Program-made: the position numbers and the translations under genes | In this document: positions 2,852-30,151 of the stretch, piece after piece | Layout of the letters: every line of letters starts with the position of its first letter | Numbering within the stretch: the first letter of the stretch is position 1 | Notes under the pieces: model-generated | Told to the model about the DNA's origin: nothing | Seen by the model: the letters and a program-made list of their open reading frames with translations, nothing else | Database searches by the model: none | DNA from: Amycolatopsis thermophila | Lineage (GTDB): Bacteria; Actinomycetota; Actinomycetes; Mycobacteriales; Pseudonocardiaceae | DNA length: 64,000 nucleotides | Direction of reading: 5' to 3' | Assembly (NCBI RefSeq): GCF_030814215.1 | Contig: NZ_JAUSUT010000001.1 | Coordinates: 1,054,001-1,118,000 of the forward strand

Positions 2852-4630
2852 TCAAGCGTGCAGCGAGTGCACCCGCAGCGCGAGCTGGATCTCCAGCGCC
2901 CGCCCCGGCTCGTGCCAGTCGTCCCCCAGCAACGTCGCCACCCGGTCGAGCCGCTGCACCACCGTGTTGACGTGCACGTGCAACGCCTCCTTCGCGCGCG
3001 TCAGGTTGCCGCCCGCCGCGAAGTAGGCCCGTAGCGTGCCCGTCAGGTCCGTGCCGCGCCGCTCGTCGTAGTCCAGCACCGGCCCGAGCGTGCGACGCAC
3101 GAAACCGGGCAGATCATCGCGGTCGCCGAGCAGCACGCCCAGGAACCCCAGCCCCGCCGCGGAGGCGCCCTCACCCGAGCGGCCCAGCGAAAGCAACGCC
3201 CGCAGGCACCGGACCGCCTCGGCGTGCGCCGCGGCGATCCCGGCCGGGCCACGGGCCGGGCCCGCCGCACCGACCGTCACCGGCGTGTCCGTCGCGGCGG
3301 TCAGCGCTTCCGCGATCCGCGGAGCCACCGCATCCGGATCGCCGCGGACCAGCAGCACGACCTCCTCCGCGTGGATCCCGGCCAGCACCGCGTGCCGCGC
3401 CGCCGCTACCGCCAGCCGCGCGCGGGACACCGATTCAGCGTGCGCCACGAGCACCGCGTGCGGCTCGGCCAGGTCCACGCCCAGCCGTTCGGCCCGCGCG
3501 AGCAACGCGCCCGGGTTGCGCTCCGGCGCCGTCAGCAGGTCCGTCAGCAGCTCGCCGCGGACCTCCTCCTCGGCCTTGGCCACCGACCGCCGCAACAACA
3601 GCAACAACGCCGTGACCACCGCCGCCCGCTCGAACAGCCGGCGGTCGGCGTCGAGCAACTCGGCCTGCCCGGCCAGGACGATGCTGCCGAGCAGCTCCGG
3701 CCCGGCCTGCACCGCGCACACCAGCGACCCGCGGCTGGCCACGGACCGGCCGGTGCCGCGCGACACCGCGACCACCTCGGGGTCCGGGGCGGGCGGTGCC
3801 GTGCCGGCGTGCGCCAGCTCCTCGCCCGCCGCGTCGAACACCCCGATCGAGCCGTGCAGGACGTCGGCCACCGCGGCGGCCACCTCCGGCACGTCCCCGC
3901 CGCGCAGCACGAGGTCCATGAGCCGGTCATGCGCCTCCTCGGCGCGGTGCATCGCCTCGGAGTGCGAGCTGATCTCGTCGAGCAGGCGGGCGTTGTCGAG
4001 CGCGATGACCGCGTGGTCGGCCAGCGACGAGAGCAGCGCGACCTCGTCGGGGGTGAAGTCGCGGGGCGTGCGGTCGGAGGCGTAGAGCACCCCGATCACC
4101 GTGCCGCCCAGGGACAGCGGGACACCGAGGATCGCGGCCAGCCCCTCGTCGCGCACCGCGTCGTCGATCGGCCCGGTGTGCAGGAACCGCTCGTCGCGGA
4201 AGTAGTCCGGGGTCGCGTACGGGCGCGCGCTCTGCGCCACCAGCCCGCCGAGCCCCTCGCCCATGCCCAGGATGACCTCCTTGAACAGGGCGGACACGCA
4301 ACCGTCGGTGACGCGCATGTAGGTGCGGCCGGCGGATGCGTCGTTGAGGCTCAGGTAGGACACGTCCGCGCCGAGCAGCGTGCGGGCCCGCCGCACGATC
4401 GACCGCAGCACGGCGTCCGGACCGCGCAGGCGGGCCAGGTCGCTGGCCGTGTCGAACAAGGCCGTCAGCTCGGCCTCACGGCGCCGGCGCGCGGTCAGGG
4501 TGGCGTGGATGCGCAGCGCCAGCTCGGTGGCCTTGGGGTGCGCGGCGCCGGCGTGCGCCAGCTGCTCGCTGCTCGCCCCGCCGGCGAGCAGGTCGAGCAG
4601 CCGGAGCACGTCGTCGTCCACGCCGATCAT
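2852..4630 (-). CDS. GAF domain-containing PucR/CdaR-type transcriptional regulator
   Basis: This 592-residue regulator has three parts. Residues about 60-220 form a GAF domain (GADVSYLSLND, then ILGVPLSLGGTVIGVLYASD). The middle is CdaR-like. The C-terminus (about 530-590) is a PucR-type helix-turn-helix, LRAYFAAGGNLTRAKEALHV followed by HVNTVVQRLDRV. Such proteins activate catabolic genes when the GAF domain binds a small effector. It starts 4 bases after the stop of the MHS transporter gene on the same strand, so it is probably cotranscribed with it and with the hydroxybutyrate dehydrogenase, and is likely their regulator. That regulatory target is inferred from position only. Confidence 0.88.
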   Translation of the reverse strand: MIGVDDDVLRLLDLLAGGASSEQLAHAGAAHPKATELALRIHATLTARRRREAELTALFDTASDLARLRGPDAVLRSIVRRARTLLGADVSYLSLNDASAGRTYMRVTDGCVSALFKEVILGMGEGLGGLVAQSARPYATPDYFRDERFLHTGPIDDAVRDEGLAAILGVPLSLGGTVIGVLYASDRTPRDFTPDEVALLSSLADHAVIALDNARLLDEISSHSEAMHRAEEAHDRLMDLVLRGGDVPEVAAAVADVLHGSIGVFDAAGEELAHAGTAPPAPDPEVVAVSRGTGRSVASRGSLVCAVQAGPELLGSIVLAGQAELLDADRRLFERAAVVTALLLLLRRSVAKAEEEVRGELLTDLLTAPERNPGALLARAERLGVDLAEPHAVLVAHAESVSRARLAVAAARHAVLAGIHAEEVVLLVRGDPDAVAPRIAEALTAATDTPVTVGAAGPARGPAGIAAAHAEAVRCLRALLSLGRSGEGASAAGLGFLGVLLGDRDDLPGFVRRTLGPVLDYDERRGTDLTGTLRAYFAAGGNLTRAKEALHVHVNTVVQRLDRVATLLGDDWHEPGRALEIQLALRVHSLHA

Positions 4631-4634
4631 CGTC

Positions 4635-5966
4635 TCATCGCGTGGCCGGTTCCGCGGCGGCCGCGGGCTCCTCGTCGCGCAGCGAGGTGCCCGCGGTCTC
4701 CTTCGCGCTGCTCACGGCGATCAGCGTGATCACGCACATCGCCACGACGTAGAGCGACACCGCCGACGTCCCGCCGAACTCCTTGAACAGCGCGACCGCG
4801 ACGATCGGCGCCAGCGCACCGGCGGCGATCGAGGACAGCTGACCGCCGACCGACAGGCCGGTGTAGCGGACGCGTGTGGGGAACTGCTCGGCGAAGAACG
4901 CCGCCTGCGGCCCGTACATGGCCCCGTGCAGCACGAGGCCGATCGTCGCGGCCAGCACGATCATCGCGGGCGAGCGGGTGTCCATCAGCGCGAAGAACGC
5001 GAACGCCCAGCCGGCCATCGCGACCGTGCCGAACAGGTACACCGGGCGACGGCCGATGCGGTCGGACAGCGCGCCCCACAGCGGGATGGTCACGAAGTGG
5101 ATCGCCGAGCCGATGAGCACCGCGTTCAGGCCGGCCGACTTGCTCAGCCCGAGCGGCCCGGTGACGTAGACCAGGATGAACGCGGTCAGCACGTAGTAGG
5201 ACACGTTCTCGGCCATGCGGGCGCCGATCGTGATCAGCACGCGGCGCCACGCATCGCGGAAGACCTCCAGCGCGGGCGCGCGGTGCTGCTCGCCGCGCTG
5301 CCGGGCCTTCTCCTGCGCCGCCAGGAACACCGGCGACTCGGTCACCGTGAGCCGGATCCACAGACCGATGACCACCAGCACGCCGGAGAGCAGGAACGGG
5401 ATGCGCCAGCCCCACGCGGTGAAGGTGGCGTCGGACTGCACCGCGGCGAGCACCGCGAGGACGGCCGTGGCCAGCAGGTTCCCGCCCGGCGCACCGCACT
5501 GCGGCCAGGACGCCCAGAACCCGCGGCGCCGGTCGTCGCCGTGCTCGGACACGATGAGCACCGCGCCGCCCCACTCTCCGCCGAGCGCGAACCCCTGGAT
5601 CAGGCGCAGCGCGGTGAGCAGCAGCGGAGCCGCCACGCCGACCGTGGCGTAGGTGGGCAGCAGGCCCATCGCGCACGTCGAGCCGCCCATCAGCAGCAGG
5701 CTGAATACCAGCAGCTTCTTGCGCCCGACGCGGTCGCCGAAGTGACCGAACACCAGTCCGCCCAGCGGCCGGGCGAGGAACCCGATCGCATACGTGGCGA
5801 ACGACAGCAGGGTGCCGGTCAGGGGATCGCTGCCGGGGAAGAACAGCTTGTTGAAGACCAGTGCCGCGGCCGAGCCGTAGAGGAAGAAGTCGTACCACTC
5901 GATGGTCGTGCCGACGAGACTCGCGCCGACCACTTTCGCGATCGAGCGCTTTTCGCTGCGGGGCAT
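4635..5966 (-). CDS. MFS transporter, metabolite:H+ symporter (MHS) family
   Basis: This is a 443-residue, 12-helix membrane symporter. The start chosen is ATG 5966, which has AGGAGTG 8-12 bases upstream; an in-frame ATG 12 codons earlier lacks such a site. The signatures of the MHS branch (ShiA, ProP, KgtP relatives) are clear: GTTIEWYDFFLYG at the start of helix 1, RPLGGLVFGHFGDRVGRKK in loop 2-3, and RLIQGFALGGEWGGA in helix 4. These proteins import organic acids or compatible solutes with protons. It sits 33 bases downstream of a 3-hydroxybutyrate dehydrogenase gene, so uptake of 3-hydroxybutyrate or a similar acid is a fair guess but not shown. Confidence 0.9.
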   Translation of the reverse strand: MPRSEKRSIAKVVGASLVGTTIEWYDFFLYGSAAALVFNKLFFPGSDPLTGTLLSFATYAIGFLARPLGGLVFGHFGDRVGRKKLLVFSLLLMGGSTCAMGLLPTYATVGVAAPLLLTALRLIQGFALGGEWGGAVLIVSEHGDDRRRGFWASWPQCGAPGGNLLATAVLAVLAAVQSDATFTAWGWRIPFLLSGVLVVIGLWIRLTVTESPVFLAAQEKARQRGEQHRAPALEVFRDAWRRVLITIGARMAENVSYYVLTAFILVYVTGPLGLSKSAGLNAVLIGSAIHFVTIPLWGALSDRIGRRPVYLFGTVAMAGWAFAFFALMDTRSPAMIVLAATIGLVLHGAMYGPQAAFFAEQFPTRVRYTGLSVGGQLSSIAAGALAPIVAVALFKEFGGTSAVSLYVVAMCVITLIAVSSAKETAGTSLRDEEPAAAAEPATR

Positions 5967-5998
5967 GGGCAACACTCCTTTGTGCCGAGGTGGGACGC

Positions 5999-6748
5999 TC
6001 ACGCGGCGGTCCAGCCGCCGTCGAGGGGCAGGGAAATCCCGGTGACGTGGCCGGAGCCGGGGCCGCAGAGCCAGCGGACCGCGCCGGCGACCTCGCCCGG
6101 GTCGATGAGCCGTTTGATCGCCGCGCGCCGCAGCAGGACCTCGCCGAGGATCTCGTCCTCGGGACGGCCGTGCGCGGCGGCCTGGTCGGCGATCTGGCCG
6201 CGGACGAGCGGGGTGTCGACGTAACCCGGGCTGACGCAGTTGCTGGTCACCCCGTGCGGCGCGCCCTCCAGCGCGACCACTTTGGACAGTCCTTCGAGCG
6301 CGTGCTTCGCCGACACGTAGGCCGCTTTGAAAGCGCTTGCGCGCAGGCCGTGGACGCTGGAGACGTTGACCACGCGGCCCCAGTTCCGCGCGTACATGTG
6401 CGGCAGGACCCGGCGGATCAGCAGGAACGGCGCGGTGACCATCACCTGGTGCATCCGGGCGAAGACCTCGGGCGGGAAGTCCGGGATCGGGGCGACGTGC
6501 TGGAAGCCGGCGTTGTTGACGAGGATGTCGACGTCGGCGGGCAACGCGTCGAGGGCTGTGGCGTCGGCGAGGTCGGCGGTGTGCGCCCAGCCTCCGGTCT
6601 CGGCGGCGACGCGTTCGGCGGCCGCGCCGTCGATGTCCACCGCGTGCACATTCGCCCCGGCCTCGGCCAGCGCCAGCGCACAGGCCCGCCCGATCCCGCT
6701 GCCCGCGCCGGTCACCAGCGCGACGCGGCCGTCCCAGTACCTGCTCAT
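5999..6748 (-). CDS. bdhA: 3-hydroxybutyrate dehydrogenase (SDR family)
   Basis: This 249-residue classical short-chain dehydrogenase oxidises (R)-3-hydroxybutyrate to acetoacetate with NAD. It has the TGAGSGIG cofactor motif at 13-20, VDID at the end of beta 2 (favouring NAD), NNAG at 78-81, and the catalytic Ser130/131, Tyr144 and Lys148 in VSSVHG and YVSAKHAL. The segment GFQHVAPI after NNAG and the VHGLRAS and SPGYVDTPLV stretches are typical of bacterial 3-hydroxybutyrate dehydrogenases rather than of fatty-acid reductases. It leads an apparent operon with the MHS transporter and PucR regulator. It may allow use of polyhydroxybutyrate breakdown products. Confidence 0.87.
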   Translation of the reverse strand: MSRYWDGRVALVTGAGSGIGRACALALAEAGANVHAVDIDGAAAERVAAETGGWAHTADLADATALDALPADVDILVNNAGFQHVAPIPDFPPEVFARMHQVMVTAPFLLIRRVLPHMYARNWGRVVNVSSVHGLRASAFKAAYVSAKHALEGLSKVVALEGAPHGVTSNCVSPGYVDTPLVRGQIADQAAAHGRPEDEILGEVLLRRAAIKRLIDPGEVAGAVRWLCGPGSGHVTGISLPLDGGWTAA

Positions 6749-6803
6749 GGCGACCGAAGGTAAGTGGCCGGCAGCGGTAAGCCTATGTGCGCAGCCACCA
6801 CAA

Positions 6804-6817
6804 GTCCTGGACAGGAC
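6804..6817. promoter_or_regulatory. Perfect palindrome between bdhA and trxA
   Basis: The 14-base sequence GTCCTGGACAGGAC is a perfect inverted repeat (6-bp arms, 2-bp centre). It lies 56 bases before the bdhA start and 81 bases before the trxA start in the divergent intergenic region. Its place suits an operator for the bdhA unit. The binding protein is unknown; the PucR regulator encoded in the same unit is a candidate. Confidence 0.45.
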
Positions 6818-6897
6818 ATGGTGACCTCTCCCATCCGGAATAGGCCGTCGACCGGGCTTGTTGCCCCGGACGAGGGGTTATTCGAGGAGGCGCACGT

Positions 6898-7302: not shown

Positions 7303-8187
7303 ATGCCCTCCCGGTTCGACGAGGTCGCCGACGAGCTGTACGCCCTGCCCCGGGACGAGTTCACCGCCGCGCGCACCGAACGCGCGAAGGCCGCCAAGGC
7401 CCGCCGGCCGGATCTCGCGAAGCAGATCGGCGGCCTGCGCAAGCCGACCGTGGCCGCGTGGCTGGTGAACCAGGTCAGCCGGCGGCACGCCGACGACGTC
7501 GGGCAACTCGCCGACCTCGGCGAGCAGTTGCGGTCGGCGCACCAGAAGCTCGCCGGGAACGACCTGCGCACGCTGTCCCGGCAGCGCAACGAACTGATCC
7601 GCAAGCTGAGCGGGTTCGCGAGCACGATCGCCGCCGAGGCCGGCGTGGCCTACAGCGACGCCGCGGAACGCCAGGTCGAGGCCACCTTCGAAGCCGCGGT
7701 GTCCACACCGGACGCGGCCGCGGAAGTGCTGGCGGGACGGCTGTCCACGGCGCTCACACCGTCCTCTTCGGAGGATTGGCTGGCGGCCGCGCTCGCCGCG
7801 TCTCCACGCACGAAGACGTCCGGGCCGCCACCGAAGAAGCCCGCGCCGAAGAAGCCGCCGGAGAAGCCCGCGGCGACGAAACCGCGTAAGGATCCCGACG
7901 CCGAACGCCGCCGCGCCGCGCTCGACGAAGCCCGCGAAAAGCTCGCATCCGCGCGGAACGACCGCGATGAGGCCCGCCAGGCGATGCAGGAGCTCTCCGA
8001 CCGCGCGGAAAAGGCCGCCGCGGTGGTGACCGACCTGCGGGAGCGCCTGGACGAGGCGGTGAAGGAGGAACGGGCCCTGCGCAAGGAGGCGTTCGGCGCC
8101 CGCAAGGCACTCACCGCCGCCGAGAAGGCCGCCGACGAGGCCGGACGACGGCTCGAGGAGATGGAGTCCTTCGGCCGGCGGCGCTAG
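7303..8187 (+). CDS. Hypothetical coiled-coil protein, stop codon at an IS insertion point
   Basis: This 294-residue protein has no family I can name. Residues 1-165 are helical with an N-terminal MPSRFDEVADELYALPRDEF and a KPTVAAWLVNQVSR segment. Residues about 170-195 are a low-complexity linker rich in Lys-Pro. Residues 195-294 form a long charged coiled coil. There is no signal peptide or membrane segment. Similar proteins are common in actinobacteria as uncharacterised short genes. The terminal TAG (8185-8187) is shared with the IS630 element: the TA is the target dinucleotide and the G is the first base of the element. The native frame would also have ended with TAG, so the product is unaltered. 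Confidence 0.8.
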   Translation: MPSRFDEVADELYALPRDEFTAARTERAKAAKARRPDLAKQIGGLRKPTVAAWLVNQVSRRHADDVGQLADLGEQLRSAHQKLAGNDLRTLSRQRNELIRKLSGFASTIAAEAGVAYSDAAERQVEATFEAAVSTPDAAAEVLAGRLSTALTPSSSEDWLAAALAASPRTKTSGPPPKKPAPKKPPEKPAATKPRKDPDAERRRAALDEAREKLASARNDRDEARQAMQELSDRAEKAAAVVTDLRERLDEAVKEERALRKEAFGARKALTAAEKAADEAGRRLEEMESFGRRR

Positions 8188-9387
8188 TGCCTCGTCAGGC
8201 AACGTTCGGTAGGTAATCAGGCCTGCGGATCTTGGATTCGGGGGCGAAGCGTCGTTTCGGTCGGGCGTGGCGATTGGCCCAGCGGATGTAGCCGGCGATA
8301 GCGGTCTCCTGCGCGGTGTGGGAGGGGTAGTCGCTGCCGTCGAGGGTGAAGTAGCGCAGCGCGGTGAACTCCGACTCGATCCAGTTCAGCCAGGAGGCGT
8401 GGGTCGGGGTGAACACCAGCTCGACATCGTGGTTGGTGCACCAGGTGGCGATCTCGGCCTTGCGGTGCGGGGAGAAGTTGTCGCAGACGATGTAGAGCCA
8501 CCCGGTCGGGAACCGGCGTCGGAGCTGGCGCAGGAAGGCGAGGAACTCCTGCCAGCGCTTGCGGTCGCGCAGTCGGTAGAACAGCTGACCTGAGGCCAAG
8601 TCGAGTCCGGCGAGCATGTGCCGGACCCCGCCGTAGCGGTTGTAGGTCGCCCGTAGCCGGGCCGGGCTCCCGGTGGGGAACCAGCCGCGGCCGGGGCGGG
8701 GTTGCAGGTTCAGCGGCCCGAACTCGTCCACGCAGATCACCCGGCCGCCATCGGGGATCTGTCCGGTGGCAGAGCGGTCGTAGAGGTCGAGGATGCGGTG
8801 CATCTTCTCGCTGAACTGCGGGTCTGGACTGGCCTTCCAGGTCTTGGTGGCCTGCCAGCGCACCCCGGCCGCCCGCAGGATCTGCCGGACCGTCTCGGCG
8901 CTGGCTATGATCCGATGCCGGTCGTGGAGATGCTCGGCCAGCTTCGACAGGCTCCACGTGGTGAACGGCAGCCCGGCGTGCTGTGGTGGGGTCCGGGCGA
9001 CCCGGCAGATCAGTTCGCGGGCGTGGGGGCCGAACTTAGGAGGTCGGCCCCCGCTCCATTTTGGGTCTAGCGCCGCGAACCCCTGGGTGTTGAACGCGTG
9101 GATCACCTCCCGCGCGTACTGCGGCTTGGCCGCGAACATCGCCGCCGCCTCGGCCGCGCTGCGGCCCTGCACCGACGCAAGCACGATCCCCGCCCGCCGC
9201 AGCCGGACCCGGTCCCGCGCCGTCCTGGTGATCTTGACCAAACGCTCGGCCTCATCCGGAGTGAGCGCCCGAACGAAGACCTCGGGCTGTCGCGGCACGT
9301 CCACCACCTCCGGCAGACAGCTTTCAGCACCTGACCGGAACCGATCAAACCGGCCCGTTACGTCCCCGACCTTCCTGGACGAGGCAC
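8187..9387 (-). mobile_element. IS630-family insertion sequence
   Basis: The element spans 1201 bases. Its ends are GTGCCTCGTCAGG on the left and, read inward from the right, GTGCCTCGTCCAGG, an imperfect terminal inverted repeat with a 10-base identical tip. It is flanked by TA at 8185-8186 and TA at 9388-9389, the dinucleotide target duplication typical of IS630/Tc1/mariner elements. It carries one intact transposase gene on the minus strand. Ends and gene are complete, so it may still be active. Confidence 0.88.
8195..9298 (-). CDS. IS630 family transposase
   Basis: This 367-residue DDE transposase cuts and pastes the element. I place the start at GTG 9298, which has GGAGG eight bases upstream and gives the family-typical N-terminus MPRQPEVFVRALTPDEAERL; the frame stays open far upstream but that part lies outside the element. 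An N-terminal helix-turn-helix (residues about 15-150) is followed by the catalytic core. Asp191 is in VICVDEFGPLNL, Asp273 in YIVCDNFSPH, and Glu308 in HASWLNWIESEF, giving the 34-residue D-E spacing of the family. No frameshift or internal stop is seen. Confidence 0.93.
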   Translation of the reverse strand: MPRQPEVFVRALTPDEAERLVKITRTARDRVRLRRAGIVLASVQGRSAAEAAAMFAAKPQYAREVIHAFNTQGFAALDPKWSGGRPPKFGPHARELICRVARTPPQHAGLPFTTWSLSKLAEHLHDRHRIIASAETVRQILRAAGVRWQATKTWKASPDPQFSEKMHRILDLYDRSATGQIPDGGRVICVDEFGPLNLQPRPGRGWFPTGSPARLRATYNRYGGVRHMLAGLDLASGQLFYRLRDRKRWQEFLAFLRQLRRRFPTGWLYIVCDNFSPHRKAEIATWCTNHDVELVFTPTHASWLNWIESEFTALRYFTLDGSDYPSHTAQETAIAGYIRWANRHARPKRRFAPESKIRRPDYLPNVA

Positions 9388-9801
9388 TAGCTCGCGGCCA
9401 CCAGCGAGCGCGGTCGCGGTGAGCACTCGGCTCCTCGCCGGCTCGCGCGACGCGGTGTGCCTGCAGGGCGATCTGCGTGAGCCCGACAGCGTCCTGGACC
9501 CGGCCGCGCTGCTCGGTTTCCGCGCGGCCACCGGCCACACCCGGACTGCCAGGCGAGCGCAGTGCGGGTCCGCGCGGTGGACGGGTCTCAGAACGCCGGC
9601 TCGCGCGACGCAGTGTGCCTGCAGGGCGATCGGCGTGAGCCGGACAGCGTCCCGGACCGGGCCGCGCTGCTCGATTTCGGCGCGCCCGTCGCCACCCCGC
9701 CCGACGACGAGCACGCCACGCACTGGCAGCCGTCGCGCGGCCACCGGCCACACCCGGACTGCCAGGCGAGCGCAATGCGGGTCGGCGCGGTGGGACGGCT
9801 C
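9388..9801. repeat. Duplicated non-coding segments upstream of the IS and downstream of an ABC gene
   Basis: This 414-base gap holds no credible gene. Two pairs of near-identical direct repeats fill it. The first pair is 9440-9515 and 9598-9673 (about 76 bp, beginning GGCTCGCGCGACGC). The second pair is 9521-9602 and 9734-9816 (about 82 bp, beginning CGCGCGGCCACCGGCCACAC). The copies differ at a few bases. The rightmost copy runs into the last codons of the ABC ATPase gene (to 9816), so the 3' end of that gene and its trailer have been copied at least once. Confidence 0.8.
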
Positions 9802-10590
9802 TCAGAACGCCGGCTCCGCGCGGGCCGTCCATCGGCCGTCGGTCCGGGTGATGCGCACCGGGTGGTCGAAGCACTTGCTGATGTGGTCCGTGGTCACCAC
9901 CTCGTCCGCCGCCCCGGCCGCCAGGCATTGGCCTTCCCGCAGGAGCAGCGCGTGCGTGGTGCTCGCGGGCAGCTCCTCGAGGTGGTGCGTCACCAGCACG
10001 GTCGCCAGCTCCGGGTGTTCCCGCCGCAGCGCGTCCACGCTGGACAGCAGCTGCTCGCGCGCCGCCACGTCCAGGCCGGTCGCCGGCTCGTCGAGCAGCA
10101 GCAACCGCGGCGCGGGCATCAGCGCGCGGGCGATCAGCGCCCGCCCGCGCTCGCCCTGCGACAACGTCGGCCAGCGGGCCTCGCGCTTGCCGTCCAGCCC
10201 CAGCATCCCGATCAGCCGCTCGGCGCGCGCCCGCGCGGCCGCCGTCGGCTGCCACCGCGGCACCAGCTCCGTCGTGTTGGTCAGCCCGGTCAGCACGACC
10301 TCGAACACCGACAGCGGCGAACGCAACGGGTGGCGCGGGTTGATGTGCCCGAGGAACGACCGCAGCTTCCGCATGTCGACCCGACCCAGCCGGTGCCCCA
10401 GTACGTCCACCGTCCCCCGCGTGGGATGTGTGACCGCCCCGAGCAGCCCCAGCAGCGTGCTCTTGCCGGCCCCGTTCGCTCCCAGCAGCGCCCAGTGCTC
10501 GCCCTCCCGCACGGTCAGCGAGATCGACCGGAGCAGGTACCGGCCGTCCCGGACGAGATCGACGTCGGACACCTGCAGCACGGTCGTCAT
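9802..10590 (-). CDS. ABC transporter ATP-binding protein
   Basis: This 262-residue ATPase has Walker A GANGAGKST near residue 40, a Q-loop region around HINPRHPLRSPLS, the signature LSQGE, Walker B LLLLDEPATGLD and the switch VTHHLEEL. The layout is like single-ATPase importers or YlmA/ModF-type proteins, with a His where many have Gln in the Q loop. No permease or binding protein is adjacent, so it is an orphan and its substrate is unknown. The start is taken at ATG 10590; ATG 10599 in the same frame is possible. The 3' end lies within a duplicated segment. Confidence 0.85.
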   Translation of the reverse strand: MTTVLQVSDVDLVRDGRYLLRSISLTVREGEHWALLGANGAGKSTLLGLLGAVTHPTRGTVDVLGHRLGRVDMRKLRSFLGHINPRHPLRSPLSVFEVVLTGLTNTTELVPRWQPTAAARARAERLIGMLGLDGKREARWPTLSQGERGRALIARALMPAPRLLLLDEPATGLDVAAREQLLSSVDALRREHPELATVLVTHHLEELPASTTHALLLREGQCLAAGAADEVVTTDHISKCFDHPVRITRTDGRWTARAEPAF

Positions 10591-15118: not shown

Positions 15119-19627
<4,509 letters not shown>

Positions 19628-24109: not shown

Positions 24110-26458
24110 ATGACCTCTCTCGATCACCGGACACCGGTCCTCGTCGGTGTCGGGCAGGCGTCCGAGCGCATCGACGAGCCCGGCTATCGCGGGCTGTCCG
24201 CGGTCGACCTCGCGGCCGCGGCGGCCCGCGACGCGCTGGCCGACACGGGTGCCGACCCGGCCCGCACCGCGCAGGCCGTGGACACCGTCGCCGCCACCCG
24301 CCAGTTCGAGATCTCCACCCCGATCTCGCACTCCCCGCTGGGCCGCTCCGACAACTTCCCCCGCTCCGTCGCGAACCGCCTCGGCGCCGCGCCCGCCCGC
24401 GCGATCCTCGAGGTCACCGGTGGCCAGTCGCCCCAGCACCTGGTCACCGAGCTGGCCGCCACGATCGCCGGCGGCGGCGCCGAGGTCGCGCTCGTCTTCG
24501 GCGCCGAGGCCATCTCCACCGCCCGCCACCTCGCGCAGGCCGACGACAAGCCGGACTTCACCGAGCACGTCGACGGCGACCTCGAGGACCGCGGGTTCGG
24601 ACTGCAGGGCCTGGCCAACCGCCAGATGCTGGCCCACGGCCTGATCGAGCCGACCAGCCAGTACGCGCTGTTCGACAACGCCCGCCGCGCCCGCCTCGGC
24701 CTGTCCCGCGACGAGTACGCCCTGGCCATGGGTGAGCTGTTCGCGCCGTTCACGAAGGTCGCCGCCGCGAACCCGCACGCCGCCGCGCCGGTCGAGCGGG
24801 ACGCGCGCGAGCTGGCGACCCCGTCCGAGCGCAACCGCCCGATCGCCGACCCGTACACCCGCTTCCTGGTGGCCCGGGAGCAGGTCAACCAGGGTGCCGC
24901 GGTGCTGCTCATGTCGGTCGGCAAGGCCCGCGAGCTGGGCGTGCCCGAAGAGAAGTGGGTGTTCCTGCACGGCCACTGCGACCTGCAGGAACAGCCGCTG
25001 CTGGAGCGGACGGACCTCAGCTCCTGTCCCGCCGCGGTGCTGGCCGTCCGGCACGCGCTGGACACCGCCGGCATCGGCGTCGCCGACCTGGCCACCCTCG
25101 ACCTCTACAGCTGCTTCCCGATCGCCGTCTTCGCAGTGTGCGACGGCCTGGGCCTGGCGCCCGACGACCCGCGCGGCCTCACCGTCACCGGCGGCCTGCC
25201 GTTCTTCGGCGGCCCGGGCAACAACTACTCGATGCACGCGATCGCCGAGACCGTCGTGCGGCTGCGCGCCCGGCCGGGCGCGTTCGGCCTGGTCGGCGCC
25301 AACGGCGGCACGTTGTCCAAGTACTCCGCCGGGGTCTACTCGACCACTCCCGCCGAGTGGCGAACGAGCCGCGACGCCGAGCTGCAGTCCGAGCTGGACG
25401 CCCGCCCGACGGTGCCGAACGCACTGCACCCGGATGGCTGGGCGACCGTGGAGACGTACACGGTGCAGCACGCGGCCGGTACCGGTGTCGTGGTCGGCAG
25501 GCTGGACGACGGCCGCCGGTTCCTCGCGTCCACGCAGGACGAGGAGATGCTCGACCGGTTGCTCGAGGGCGAACCGATCGGCGGCAAGGTGTACGTGCGC
25601 TCGTTCGGTTTCGGCAACCGGGTCACGGCGACCGCCGAGCGGATGGACGAGCTGTTCCCGCCGCGCGCGCCCGGGTTCCGCGAGGACTACGAGCACGTGC
25701 GCGTCCGCCGGGACGGGCACCTGCTGGAGGTCACCATCGACCGCCCGGAGAGCCGCAACAGCCTGCACCCGCCGGCCAACGCCGAGCTCGACGAGATCTT
25801 CGACGCCTACTTCGCCGACCCCGACCTGTGGGTCGCGATCATCACCGGCGCCGGGGACAAGGCGTTCTCCGCGGGCAACGACCTGGTGTACTCGGCGAGC
25901 GGGAAACCGGTGTGGGTGCCCAAGAACGGGTTCGCCGGGCTCACCAGCCGCGAGTCGCTGCCCAAACCGGTGATCGCCGCGGTGAACGGGTTCGCGCTCG
26001 GCGGTGGCTGCGAGATCGCGCTGGCCTGCCACCTCGTGGTCGCCGACGAGACCGCGCAGTTCGGCCTGCCCGAGGTGCGGGTCGGCCTGGTGGCTGCCGC
26101 CGGCGGCCTGGTCCGGCTGCCGCGCACGGTGCCGCCGAAGGTCGCCAACGACATGGTCCTCACCGGCCGCAGGCTGAGCGCGGCCGAGGCCGAGTCCTAC
26201 GGCCTGGTCAGCCGCGTCGTCCCGGCCGGTCAGGCGCTGACGGCCGCGCGCGAGGTGGCGGCCGCGATCCTGGAGGGCTCGCCCACCTCGGTGCGCACGT
26301 CCCTGCGGATGATGGCGGAGGCGGACGCGATCGCGGACACCGTCGAGGCCGCCCGGTACCCCTCCCCCGCGCTGGACGACCTCCTCGTCAGCCAGGACGC
26401 GTTCGAAGGACCGGCCGCGTTCGCCCAGAAACGGAAACCGGTGTGGCGAAACCGCTGA
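24110..26458 (+). CDS. Thiolase-like / enoyl-CoA hydratase fusion protein
   Basis: This 782-residue protein joins two acyl-CoA enzymes. Residues about 8-400 are thiolase-fold, of the SCP2-thiolase-like acetyl-CoA acetyltransferase subgroup; where classical thiolases have the nucleophilic Cys this one reads EVTGGQSPQH (residues 101-110), and FFGGPGNNYSMHA replaces the GHP motif. Residues about 420-520 look like an OB-fold. From about 535 there is a full crotonase domain with both oxyanion loops, GDKAFSAGNDL and FALGGGCEIALACHL, and PEVRVGLVAAAGG. In many genomes the two parts are separate neighbouring genes. Likely role: a hydratase step coupled to a non-decarboxylating C-C lyase or an inactive scaffold, in beta-oxidation. 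No frameshift separates the halves. Confidence 0.82.
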   Translation: MTSLDHRTPVLVGVGQASERIDEPGYRGLSAVDLAAAAARDALADTGADPARTAQAVDTVAATRQFEISTPISHSPLGRSDNFPRSVANRLGAAPARAILEVTGGQSPQHLVTELAATIAGGGAEVALVFGAEAISTARHLAQADDKPDFTEHVDGDLEDRGFGLQGLANRQMLAHGLIEPTSQYALFDNARRARLGLSRDEYALAMGELFAPFTKVAAANPHAAAPVERDARELATPSERNRPIADPYTRFLVAREQVNQGAAVLLMSVGKARELGVPEEKWVFLHGHCDLQEQPLLERTDLSSCPAAVLAVRHALDTAGIGVADLATLDLYSCFPIAVFAVCDGLGLAPDDPRGLTVTGGLPFFGGPGNNYSMHAIAETVVRLRARPGAFGLVGANGGTLSKYSAGVYSTTPAEWRTSRDAELQSELDARPTVPNALHPDGWATVETYTVQHAAGTGVVVGRLDDGRRFLASTQDEEMLDRLLEGEPIGGKVYVRSFGFGNRVTATAERMDELFPPRAPGFREDYEHVRVRRDGHLLEVTIDRPESRNSLHPPANAELDEIFDAYFADPDLWVAIITGAGDKAFSAGNDLVYSASGKPVWVPKNGFAGLTSRESLPKPVIAAVNGFALGGGCEIALACHLVVADETAQFGLPEVRVGLVAAAGGLVRLPRTVPPKVANDMVLTGRRLSAAEAESYGLVSRVVPAGQALTAAREVAAAILEGSPTSVRTSLRMMAEADAIADTVEAARYPSPALDDLLVSQDAFEGPAAFAQKRKPVWRNR

Positions 26459-26599
26459 CTCCGGCGCTCCCGCCCCGGACGTGGTGAGCCGCCGCGTTCC
26501 GCCGCCGTGACCGGGTGTCCGGCGGCGGGCGCGGCCGGGCACCACGTTCAGGGGTCGTTCGTCCCGGGGAAATGCCCTTCCCGCCCTTTCCGGCCGCCG

Positions 26600-26672
26600 C
26601 GCCCCGGCTCAGAATCGAACACGGCTTTTCCTTTTCCGGAAACCGTTTCGAGAATTCCTTTCGGGAGGCGAG
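26600..26672 (+). promoter_or_regulatory. AT-richer promoter region with TTTCCGGAAA palindrome
   Basis: The stretch just before the 33-residue peptide gene is clearly lower in GC than its surroundings and is free of long frames. It contains the perfect 10-base palindrome TTTCCGGAAA at 26633-26642 and ends in a strong TCGGGAGGCGAG ribosome-binding site immediately before ATG 26673. It most likely holds the promoter of the peptide/LanB unit. No exact -35/-10 pair is asserted. Confidence 0.5.
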
Positions 26673-26774
26673 ATGGCGGTGCCGTCGACCGTGCGCCCGC
26701 GGGAGGGGACCGCGCCGATGCGGGATTTCGCGTCCGGCTGCCACGGCGTGGTGCGCGGAGGGGGTGGGTTGTGA
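26673..26774 (+). CDS. 33-residue peptide, candidate RiPP precursor or scaffold peptide
   Basis: This short gene encodes 33 residues from ATG 26673 with a strong GGGAGG site five bases upstream. Its TGA (26772-26774) shares the A with the ATG of the LanB-like gene (TGATG), the classic sign of translational coupling. The N-terminal half is a possible leader (prolines, arginines, Ser5, Thr6, Thr13). The C-terminal half reads MRDFASGCHGVVRGGGGL, with Ser21, Cys23, His24 and a glycine tail. An internal ATG at 26718, with GGAGGGG upstream, could make an 18-residue form. Peptides beside stand-alone LanB proteins serve as modification substrates. I do not recognise the core; the function is inferred from position only. 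Confidence 0.55.
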   Translation: MAVPSTVRPREGTAPMRDFASGCHGVVRGGGGL

Positions 26775-29101
26775 TGTCCGAGCCCGCGCTCGTCCGGATC
26801 GCCGGCCTGCCGGCTGCCCTGGCCGCCGCGCTCGGCACGCCCGACCTGACCGAGCGGCTGCGTCACCTGATCCGCGCCGAGACCGCCTACCGCGCCTGCG
26901 CCGCGACCGTGGCGGAGCAGATCGGCGAGGAGCTCGTCCCGCTGCTGCCCCGCGACCTCCGGCGCCACGCCCTCGACGTGCGGCGCCGGTTGCACCGCGG
27001 CGAGCTGGTGCAAGCGTCCGAACTGGACTTCCGGCCGCTGGGGCGGATCACCGAGTGGGCCGCCGCGCTGGCCGCCGACACGGCCGCGCTGCAGGAGGCC
27101 GTGCTGGACACCGAAGGCATGCACCACGGCCTCGTGTGGGACCTGATCAGCCGGGACGCGGCGGCCGGTCGGATCGTCGCGGCCACCGCGCCGGACGTCG
27201 CCGAGGACATCCGCGCCCGATTGGCCGCGGGCGAGCCGTGGACGAGCAAACCCCTGCGCGAACGCGCCGACCACCTGCTGCGCCTGCTGTTCCGGTCCGC
27301 GCTGACGACCGCCCCGCAAGGCTGGCTCACGCACGTCGTCCCCGCCCGCACCGGGCCGGGTCCGCTGCGGATCGGCGACCACGCGGCGCACCGCCGGGTA
27401 CCGGCCTCCGCACCGGTCCCGCCGGACGCCTGGCTCAACCTCACGCCGTTGCGCTGGACCGAGGACGACCGGCTGTGCTGGCAGGCGGCCGGCCACGACG
27501 GCCCCGGGGCGGTGCGTCGCGGGGCCGTCCGCCGGACACCGGTCGTGGACGCGCTCTGCCGGGTGCTGGGTTCGCGGGCGATGCGCACCCGGGACGTGGT
27601 GACGCTGCTCGCGCCCGACGCGCACCGCAAGCCCCTGCTGCGCGAGTTCCTGCGCCATCTGGCGGAACTCGGGCTCGTGCAGGTCTCGTCCGCGCCGTCC
27701 GGGCGCCTGCACCGGTGGCGGGCCACCGCCGCGACCGGGCCGGGGTCCAGCGACGTCCAGCGCAACGCCGGCGTCCCGGTGCCGGCGCGGCTGCCCGAGC
27801 TGATCGACCAGGCGGGCCGTCTCGCCGCGGTGATCGCGGACCGGCGAACGCAGCCGGCGCTCGAGCTGGTCGGCCCCGAACCGCGGCCGCTGCCGGAGAT
27901 CGTCGCGGAGGCACTGGACTCCCCCGAGCCGCGCCGGCCCGCGATGCCCGCCTCGGCCTGGCCCGAACCGCGGCCGCGCACGATCTACCAGCGGCTGTGC
28001 GAGTGGCTGGCCCGGCACGCCGACGAGTCCGAGATCGACGTCGGCCCGGCCGTGCTGGACTACCTCGGCGCGCCCCCGGCGAAGCCGTCGCCGTGGCCGG
28101 TCGACTGCCTGCTCCGCCCGCTGCCGGAGGGACGGGCCGTGCTGGAGGCGGTCACCCCGGCCGGCGAAGCCGACGCCCGCTTCGCCGCGGCGTTGCAATG
28201 CCGGCACGGTGAGGTGCCGCAGGTCAGCGCCCACCGCGCGTTCCTGGTCGAGACCGCGGCCCGGTGCGGCGCGGAGCTCGTCGAGATCCTGGTACCGCAG
28301 GGCGCCGACGCCGTGCCCTGCCCGCGTTACACCCGCACCTGGACCGGCGACGCCGATCCAGCGACCGGTGTGGACGATCCGGCCGGCATGCGCCGGTACC
28401 TGCCGCCGGCGGAGATCACGCTGCGCCGCGACGCACGCGGGGTCATCGCCGAGGACAGCGCCGGGCACGTGCTGTGGCCGGTCTACCACGGGACCCGGCG
28501 CCCGCCCCCGCCGTGGGATCTGGTGGTCTCGCTGCTCACCGCCGCCTCCCCGGCCCGGCGCCTGGCCGTGGAGCGGACGTTCGGCGATCCCCGGCTCGCC
28601 TTCCCCGGCCGGGTCCGCACGCCGCGCCTGCTGCTCGACGGGGACCTGGTGATCGCCCCGGCGACCGTGTTCGCCGGCCGGGATCTGCTCCCCGAGCCGG
28701 GCGGCGACAGGTTCGCGCGGGTGCGGGCGCTGGCGAACCTGCGCCTGGCGACCGGCGCTCCGCGCTGGGTGTTCGCCCGCTGCGGTCACCGGTCGCGGCC
28801 GGTGGACCTGGACAGCGTCGCCACGCTGCGGGTGTTCGACCGGATGCTGGCCGACCCCGCGGTGCCCGGGCTGGTCCTGGAGGAGATGCTGCCCGCGCCC
28901 GACGATCTGGTCGTGTCCGATGTGGACGGCGCGGCGCACGCGGCGCAGGTCCTGGTACGGCTGCCGTTCGCGACCCCGCCGTCCCAGCTGGCCGAGCAGG
29001 TCACCGCGGCCTGGCAGCAGGTCACCACACGACGCGCCCGGCAGCTCGCACACCACGGAGCCGGAGAACCCCTCCCGGCGGGTGTGCCGCGGACCTGGTG
29101 A
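26774..29101 (+). CDS. Stand-alone LanB-type N-terminal domain protein (small LanB / PEARL-like)
   Basis: This 775-residue protein resembles the tRNA-dependent N-terminal (glutamylation) domain of LanB lantibiotic dehydratases. Early parts include VRIAGLPAALAAAL, RRLHRGEL, and an SKPLRERADHLLRLLFRSAL segment at the place of the LanB RYLxR motif. A winged-helix segment (about 260-305) follows. The most telling match is near the C-terminus: a DGDLVIAPATVFAGRDLLP segment, then PVDLDSV and LVLEEMLPAPDDLVVSDVDG. No SpaB_C elimination domain follows. LanB proteins of this form either work with a separate eliminase or, as PEARLs, add an amino acid from aminoacyl-tRNA to a peptide C-terminus. No such eliminase is adjacent. 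Start ATG 26774 overlaps the peptide gene stop. Confidence 0.72.
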   Translation: MSEPALVRIAGLPAALAAALGTPDLTERLRHLIRAETAYRACAATVAEQIGEELVPLLPRDLRRHALDVRRRLHRGELVQASELDFRPLGRITEWAAALAADTAALQEAVLDTEGMHHGLVWDLISRDAAAGRIVAATAPDVAEDIRARLAAGEPWTSKPLRERADHLLRLLFRSALTTAPQGWLTHVVPARTGPGPLRIGDHAAHRRVPASAPVPPDAWLNLTPLRWTEDDRLCWQAAGHDGPGAVRRGAVRRTPVVDALCRVLGSRAMRTRDVVTLLAPDAHRKPLLREFLRHLAELGLVQVSSAPSGRLHRWRATAATGPGSSDVQRNAGVPVPARLPELIDQAGRLAAVIADRRTQPALELVGPEPRPLPEIVAEALDSPEPRRPAMPASAWPEPRPRTIYQRLCEWLARHADESEIDVGPAVLDYLGAPPAKPSPWPVDCLLRPLPEGRAVLEAVTPAGEADARFAAALQCRHGEVPQVSAHRAFLVETAARCGAELVEILVPQGADAVPCPRYTRTWTGDADPATGVDDPAGMRRYLPPAEITLRRDARGVIAEDSAGHVLWPVYHGTRRPPPPWDLVVSLLTAASPARRLAVERTFGDPRLAFPGRVRTPRLLLDGDLVIAPATVFAGRDLLPEPGGDRFARVRALANLRLATGAPRWVFARCGHRSRPVDLDSVATLRVFDRMLADPAVPGLVLEEMLPAPDDLVVSDVDGAAHAAQVLVRLPFATPPSQLAEQVTAAWQQVTTRRARQLAHHGAGEPLPAGVPRTW

Positions 29102-29155
29102 CGACGTCCGCACGGACGACCGGCCGGCGACGCGGCGGTGTCCATCTGCACCCGT

Positions 29156-30151
29156 TCACCCCCGGGTTCGACGGTTGTTCACGTGGACGTCAGGCACCAC
29201 GACCAGCTTTCCGGTGGCCCGGTCCTCCTCCATGTACCGGTGGGCGGCCGCGATGTCCTCCAGCCCGAAGACGCGATGCAGGTTGGGCCGGTGGACACCG
29301 GCCTCGACCTCGTCGACGATCCGCTGCAACAGGGCGGCGTCACCTTTGACGGTGTCGCTGTGGAAGGCCGTCAGCCGGGTGCCGGACGGGATCATCGCGA
29401 TCGGTTCGAGGTCCGGGATCACCCAACCGCTGAGCGATCCCGCCACGCACACCGTCCCGCCACGACGGACCAGCCGCAGCGAGTCCACGGCCGTGCTCGC
29501 CCCGACGAGATCCAGCACGTGGTCCGGCCCGTCCGGCCAGATCGCGTGCACGTCGGCCGCCAGCGAACCGGCGTCGACGAGGACGTGATCGGCGGTCAGC
29601 GCGCCGGCCTTGGCCGGCCGGCGGGTCGTGGCGGCGGTCCGGACACCGTGGCCGGAGGCGATCGACGCCGCCGCCATCCCCACGGACGAGGTCCCGCCGC
29701 GGATCAGCAACCGGCTGCCCGGCGTGACCCCCAGCGCGTCCAGTGCGCCCTGCGCGGTCAGGTAGGTCTCGGGCAACGCGGCGAGGACCTCCCACGGCAA
29801 GGTCGTCGTCACCGGCATCAGCAGCGAGTTCGGCAACAACGCGTACTCGGCATAGCCGCCGTCGAACTGCCGTCCCATCTCACCCATCACCGCCGCGACG
29901 GTGGTCCCCTCGGGCAGCGCGGGGTCGGTCGAGGCGGTCACCTCGCCGACGCATTCGATCCCCAGCACGCGCGGGAACACCACGCCCGGCGAATGCCCCT
30001 GCCGGGTCCGCAGCTCCGACCGGTTCAGTCCCGCGCCCCGCACCCGGACGAGGCTCCAGCCCGGCCGGACGGCCGGCACCGGCACCTCACGGATCTCCAG
30101 GACCTCCGGGCCACCGGCCCGAACGCACACCGCCGCTCGCATCGTCGTCAT
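29156..30151 (-). CDS. Zinc-independent MDR alcohol dehydrogenase / quinone oxidoreductase
   Basis: This is a 331-residue medium-chain dehydrogenase/reductase. It has the N-terminal GroES-like domain (GAGLNRSELRTRQG, then VLGIECVGEV) and a Rossmann part with LLIRGGTSSVGMAAASIAS and a DLVGAS segment. It lacks the structural zinc cysteines and the catalytic zinc ligands, as in quinone oxidoreductases (QOR/YhdH types). It probably reduces quinones or enones with NADPH. Two starts are possible, ATG 30151 or 30142. It is divergent from an AraC-type regulator with 54 bases between starts and converges with the LanB-like gene. Confidence 0.88.
   Translation of the reverse strand: MTTMRAAVCVRAGGPEVLEIREVPVPAVRPGWSLVRVRGAGLNRSELRTRQGHSPGVVFPRVLGIECVGEVTASTDPALPEGTTVAAVMGEMGRQFDGGYAEYALLPNSLLMPVTTTLPWEVLAALPETYLTAQGALDALGVTPGSRLLIRGGTSSVGMAAASIASGHGVRTAATTRRPAKAGALTADHVLVDAGSLAADVHAIWPDGPDHVLDLVGASTAVDSLRLVRRGGTVCVAGSLSGWVIPDLEPIAMIPSGTRLTAFHSDTVKGDAALLQRIVDEVEAGVHRPNLHRVFGLEDIAAAHRYMEEDRATGKLVVVPDVHVNNRRTRG

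Follow-up and report, generated by a model that had tools for sequence, protein, structure and literature searches.

An orphan LanB gene of Amycolatopsis thermophila is probably the remnant of a SapT-type lanthipeptide operon

Introduction

The SapT (spt) system of Streptomyces lavenduligriseus comprises SptA, SptBa, SptBb, and SptC (PMC9011353, PMC9890492, PMC9486935). The LanB of this system is split into the glutamyl transferase SptBa and the lyase SptBb (PMC9011353, PMC9890492). Here we describe a locus of Amycolatopsis thermophila that is very probably a reduced remnant of such a split-LanB class I lanthipeptide operon. It lies in a stretch of 64,000 nucleotides, called the window below (G000:C1:1054001-1118000), of a genome assembled as a single contig of 7.3 Mb (G000). 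The locus consists of a 33-codon frame coupled to a gene for a 775-residue LanB-type protein, which a first-pass annotation had proposed to be a peptide and its modification enzyme. No account of these Amycolatopsis operons was recognised in the open-licence literature, a survey that did not extend to searches with the peptide sequences.

Results

Both frames are present where the first-pass annotation had placed them (Table 1), and they overlap in TGATG, with base 26774 belonging to the end of the short frame and the start of the long one. The short frame encodes MAVPSTVRPREGTAPMRDFASGCHGVVRGGGGL and is preceded by the ribosome-binding stretch TTTCGGGAGGCGAG. In tblastn searches, its product matches four intact genes for SpaB_C proteins at residues 1-23 or 1-30, with E values of 5e-7 to 3e-6. 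When the partly deleted SpaB_C gene of G010 is included, the N-terminal matches range from 5e-7 to 6e-5, and there is no other match at E<=0.1 among the compared relatives' loci. The blastp score against the SpaB_C protein of G002 is 34.7 bits over residues 1-30; in the shuffle control, 483 of 500 shuffled frames gave a match, with a top score of 19.2 bits. The DNA upstream of the frame is 80-82% identical to that of the four intact loci and of G010, and the blastn similarity continues into the first codons. Against L017, the identity is 81% over 292 aligned columns and extends to position 26741, within the first codons; against L016, L018, L019, L020, and L021 it is 80-85% over 145-254 columns.

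The match to the N-terminus of SpaB_C and the upstream DNA shared into the first codons both identify the 33-codon frame as what is left of a deleted SpaB_C gene, of which it retains the first 23-30 or so codons. Over 23 codons, the stump differs from five relatives by 8-10 amino-acid and 1-3 silent changes, a pattern that seems to be as expected without coding constraint, although the numbers are small. The role of substrate or scaffold peptide suggested for the frame is rejected, and with it the two-gene system. Nor is there a conserved short frame before the homologous LanB genes, an absence that the first-pass annotation had itself named as refuting its proposal: of the eight other genomes of the genus with the locus, four have a whole SpaB_C gene (307-308 aa), one has a fragment (122 aa), and three have neither.

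The comparison within the genus covered 19 Amycolatopsis genomes, including that of the window, and a genome scan with two short patterns gave nine loci. The LanB gene is present in 9 of the 19 genomes, with the eight besides the window's own at 71-81% identity, and all nine copies sit behind the same thiolase/enoyl-CoA hydratase gene. Selection of genomes by this thiolase at >=85% identity returns the identical nine. In four of them (G002, G009, G013, and G017), the thiolase is separated from LanB by a gene of 307-308 aa that overlaps the start of LanB. Its product is a SpaB_C lyase: PF14028 matches both of the proteins tested (8e-14 and 1e-16), and TIGR03891 matches the single one tested (4e-22). 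On the 3' side of LanB, the four genomes carry a precursor of about 52 aa (LanA) and then LanC (PF05147 in the two tested), so that the complete locus has the order SpaB_C glutamyl lyase, LanB, LanA, LanC. The motif HKPPGLRxR is present in all seven aligned SpaB_C lyases. The one Amycolatopsis LanA precursor tested has no Pfam or NCBIfam match.

As read by eye, LanA precursors lie at L017:10035-10190 and L016:9703-9858 and at the same place in L018 and L019, and the Amycolatopsis LanA cores, for example PFSLLLCSGDCDGHGHSWHWC, PPSLLLCSGYCGDEDASWFVC, or ..GDEESSWFVC, have few Ser/Thr and three Cys. In L019 (G013, 4564-6823 reversed), the thiolase/enoyl-CoA hydratase gene is broken up into separate frames, through either mutation or an error in the assembly.

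Loci outside the genus were found via LanB matches. This sample consists of 15 loci picked from the stronger matches, with further matches from the same genera and short weak matches omitted; L033 and L026 are one locus and were counted once. Among 16 loci of the wider family, LanB is adjoined by SpaB_C in 14 and by LanC in 12, and L089 has LanC fragments only. The Streptomyces loci L032, L034, L035, and L037 have a similar order, as judged by eye.

The LanB-type motifs quoted in the first-pass annotation are present in the translation of the 775-residue protein. When searched alone, the protein matches no Pfam and no NCBIfam family at E<=1, a single-protein sequence search of the PDB returned nothing useful, and tblastn against plasmids gave no match. 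A LanB profile match is obtained through its homologues: PF04738 is found at E<=0.01 in 19 of the 27 members of alignment A2, the window protein not being among the 19. This alignment was made without L018 and L019 (near copies of L016), the contig-cut L036, L097, and L101. A profile search reached TbtB (6ec7) at 1.7e-13. The predicted model of the window protein matches TbtB, MibB, and NisB far above all else, with TbtB as the top structural match. The protein is labelled LanB because its homologues match PF04738 and its fold matches these three proteins, which agrees with its proposed assignment to the glutamylation type without an elimination domain. The fold lists contain no PEARL structure, which carries no weight either way.

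The partners of LanB have been lost in different ways. In G010, SpaB_C pieces of 46 and 80 codons are fused in frame (122 aa), a LanA is kept with what looks by eye like ACG as its start codon, and 18 residues still match the end of LanC (E 0.027). In G004, the beginning of SpaB_C leads straight into LanB; the contig stops 353 bases past LanB, and therefore the downstream side of this locus rests on genome-wide searches. G012 and G001 are without SpaB_C and have the same 125-base gap, which indicates that the loss predates their split. In the window, LanA and LanC queries gave no match at E<=0.1 between positions 18000 and 36000, and the separate SpaB_C gene, intact in 4 of the 9 genomes with the locus, is reduced to the stump. 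At each of the four distinct junctions (window, G010, G004, and G012/G001), the LanB frame is preserved whole, along with a site of the ribosome-binding type. LanB is kept in all nine genomes with the thiolase locus, whereas each partner is intact in only four. The two trees differ on where G012/G001 join, and both point to at least three losses, barring regain: in the window, in G010/G004, and in G012/G001.

Genome-wide searches found no further lyase or cyclase copy in the window's genome, G010, G004, G012, or G001. The weaker matches fall in other long frames, which in the window's genome are a full-length LanB and its LanC. With the LanA of G009 as query, all four complete genomes match at E<=2e-17, and the remaining five give either E values of at least 0.58 or no match; the window's genome has no match at E<=10, although a very different LanA could escape this query. 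The one SpaB_C domain and the one LanC found in this genome belong to an independent pair of full-length LanB and LanC at a distance of about 0.59 Mb. This second lanthipeptide-type pair, with a LanB frame of 968 aa, is located at G000:C1:1673148-1677061. A distant intact partner set was rejected on the basis of the searches for lyase, LanA, and cyclase, which weakens the proposal of a dehydratase relying on distant partners.

Partly reduced operons also occur outside the genus, at L089 (G072), with LanC in fragments, and at L094 (G255), where LanA and LanC were not found. More distant LanB-only loci are L026/L033 (Gandjariella thermophila) and L099 (G132). In a SpaB_C profile search, at least 149 of 390 family genomes match, and the strong matches in G147, G064, G065, and G273 come from genomes without a LanB match in the LanB search. 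L102 (G147, about 7700-9960 reversed) is a mirror image of the window in that SpaB_C and LanC are kept and LanB and LanA were not found, and L105 has a SpaB_C relative alone. These two loci rule out LanB as an invariable survivor. L103 and L104 have a different, long LanB, by eye.

Across the 18 sequences classed as operon-complete, 77 columns of the alignment are invariant; L034 and L100 were included on their SpaB_C and LanC, with LanA not clearly seen in either. The window LanB departs at 9 of these columns (T180A, R182Q, L477R, a missing P after 508, N512D, R515P, R516C, Y532G, and L545P), and its operon-complete sister at none. The other LanB-only sequences depart at 2 (G010), 2 (G004), 17 (G012), 13 (G001), 16 (L099), and 28 (L026) columns, and the partly reduced operons L089 and L094 show 2 and 3 departures. 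When complete members are left out one at a time, 15 of the 18 show 0-3 departures and the remaining three 5, 10, and 11. Two conserved blocks are altered in the window protein: KTTPRGWL reads TTAPQGWL, and VPPxxxxANxVRRPRYT reads VP----QGADAVPCPRYT. Several of the columns concerned are also altered in other LanB-only lineages. KTTPRGWL corresponds in the alignment to the RxTPFG region in the full-length LanB from the same genome, presumably the region of R83, R87, and T89 of NisB. The substitutions R83A, R87A, and T89A in NisB reduce dehydration, T89A only slightly (PMC4341554). From these departures, we infer that the transferase activity of the window LanB is impaired.

All nine LanB frames are open. 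In a branch-class codon model run on two topologies, omega is 0.084-0.086 in complete lineages, 0.12 on the window branch, which spans periods on both sides of the loss, 0.13 in G010/G004, and 0.18 at the tips and 0.20-0.21 on the stem of G012/G001. In the thiolase control, from which the broken G013 frame was excluded, omega is 0.05-0.07 in all branch classes. Separate values for the LanB-only branches (0.158) and the rest (0.085) are better than a single omega by 12.2 log units. The NG86 estimate is 0.44 for G012/G001, compared with 0.18 at the codon-model tips, and about 0.20 for close complete pairs; therefore, the strength of the constraint depends on the method. We conclude that constraint on LanB remains and is relaxed relative to complete operons.

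The intergenic stretch of G012/G001 differs at 12 of 124 sites (9.7%). Intergenic DNA is an unsafe neutral standard, because in the complete pair L018/L019 the intergenic rate (6 of 220 sites, 2.7%) is about that of codon positions 1 and 2 of their LanB (3.1 and 2.2%). A neutral simulation was run 60 times, with base frequencies taken from four-fold sites and the transition/transversion ratio assumed to be 3; it produced 1.7 stops per pair. Since 15% of the runs were free of stops, the stop count alone was rejected as proof of selection.

The claimed absence of adjacent SpaB_C, cyclase, transporter, and protease genes holds, because both neighbours of the locus are of other kinds: a thiolase/enoyl-CoA hydratase fusion upstream and a zinc-type alcohol dehydrogenase on the opposite strand downstream. 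The downstream neighbours differ from those of G010 and of G012/G001. Elsewhere in the window, a 1518-aa frame resembles a hybrid histidine kinase and contains about seven 276-base repeats, HAMP-type by eye; a similar repeat region seems to be present at the start of L033.

Table 1. Positions of the locus and of other features in the window
Feature	Position	Strand	Evidence
Inherited 5' region of the putative former operon, from the thiolase gene to the SpaB_C start, with ribosome-binding site GGGAGG	26461..26672	+	blastn against relatives
33-codon frame, probable remaining 5' end of the lost gene for SpaB_C (SptBb-like glutamyl lyase)	26673..26774	+	tblastn, blastp, shuffles
LanB (SptBa-like) glutamyl-transferase homologue, 775 aa, without elimination domain	26774..29101	+	homologues, fold
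LanB residues about 213-306, predicted to be RRE-like (leader-binding)	27410..27691	+	prediction
Site of LanA and LanC in complete relatives; neither detected here	29102..29155	.	LanA/LanC queries, downstream DNA
Thiolase/enoyl-CoA hydratase fusion gene	24110-26458		
Zinc-type alcohol dehydrogenase gene	29156-30151	-	
Frame resembling a hybrid histidine kinase, 1518 aa	15119-19675	-	
276-base repeats in this frame	17569-19449		

Discussion

Descent from a SapT-type operon at this locus is indicated by the shared synteny, the upstream DNA, and the stump; the shared locus, the stump, the losses, and the open, still constrained LanB frame are observed directly. By homology with SapT, for which the chemistry has been published, the LanB of a complete operon would transfer glutamate from glutamyl-tRNA onto Ser/Thr residues of LanA, the SpaB_C protein would then eliminate the glutamate to leave a dehydro amino acid, and LanC would close the thioether rings. 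In the lineage of the window, a deletion took nearly the whole SpaB_C gene. It spared the ribosome-binding site, the start codon, and some 23-30 codons, and this frame now continues to a stop that overlaps the start of LanB; LanA and LanC were lost on the other side of LanB. The remaining LanB would no longer yield a product, and the stump, ending in TGATG, may now only feed ribosomes to LanB. The window LanB is probably a reduced and impaired relic of a known system.

It is conceivable, though rather unlikely, that the orphan LanB was kept after the loss of the operon for a new and perhaps non-catalytic job, such as binding of leader or tRNA or protection against the lanthipeptides of relatives. 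A more specific form of this idea, about as doubtful, is that LanB survived at least three separate losses of its lyase, precursor, and cyclase and was repurposed under selection, with its catalytic residues released and its fold and RRE-like part kept. Several observations favour such a job and count against reduction to a mere relic. The LanB frame is not decaying freely: LanB-only branches are under purifying selection, with omega=1 rejected by 38-83 log-likelihood units in every such branch class, and codon positions 1 and 2 of G012/G001 differ by only 5.6 and 5.0%, whereas neutral simulation gave 14.7 and 18.7%. LanB may therefore still have some function. Its survival in every genome with the locus suggests use, the four junctions all spared its frame and a ribosome-binding-type site, and LanB-only loci recur in Gandjariella and G132. 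However, the constraint is weaker than in complete operons, and residues invariant in the family have changed in all five LanB-only members of the clade and in L099 and L026. Outside the genus, moreover, the loci were found through LanB; the reverse loss exists in L102 and L105, and the window, G010, and G012/G001 each have different downstream neighbours. Decay with residual constraint is therefore likelier than a new role, given the changes at invariant residues, the relaxation of constraint, and a LanB loss of the L102 type.

Two further explanations carry little weight. The window LanB could be an active glutamyl transferase serving the other lanthipeptide cluster of its genome (G000:C1 1673-1677 kb), which does contain a full-length LanB and LanC. 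This is very improbable, as the LanB of that cluster has both an N- and a C-terminal domain and would not be expected to require another transferase, and the window LanB departs at invariant columns. Hardly credible at all is a PEARL acting on a 33-residue scaffold peptide, as considered in the first-pass annotation. The glutamylation-type fold without SpaB_C and the short coupled frame before LanB are what such a system would offer, but the frame, which ends in GGGGL, is the SpaB_C stump, and no comparable short peptide stands before LanB in the other eight genomes of the genus. The homologues are mostly found in SpaB_C-LanB-LanA-LanC lanthipeptide operons, and beyond the missing elimination domain the PEARL reading gained no positive support.

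Reading the locus as an operon remnant does away with a misleading candidate. A short frame coupled to the gene of a modification enzyme can readily pass for a precursor peptide, and here it is what remains of a deleted gene. The clade offers complete, partly deleted, and LanB-only stages for testing the function of LanB without lyase and substrate.

Among described systems, SapT is the closest in organization. The complete Amycolatopsis loci and several Streptomyces loci share with it a separate transferase, lyase, LanA, and LanC. The Lys of HKPPGLRxR resembles, by eye, the conserved Lys of syn-lyases, in an alignment that does not include SptBb itself. The Streptomyces LanA of L037 ends in ..CSGVCTIVICTAIVC, which we take to be close to SapT, whereas the Amycolatopsis LanA cores PPSLLLCSGYCGDEESSWFVC and PFSLLLCSGDCDGHGHSWHWC are unlike it. 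The window differs further in having only the SptBa-like part whole; the SptBb-like part is a stump, and SptA- and SptC-like parts were not found. The stand-alone LanB glutamylation fold is shared with TbtB of thiomuracin (6ec7, 6ec8) and GodF (9jhq), at 15-19% identity, but these proteins belong to thiopeptide and goadsporin pathways. PEARLs such as BhaBC and TglB (PMC11962472) are likewise LanB glutamylation-type proteins without an elimination domain; by comparison, the window is without a scaffold peptide, and the relatives of its protein are halves of lanthipeptide dehydratases.
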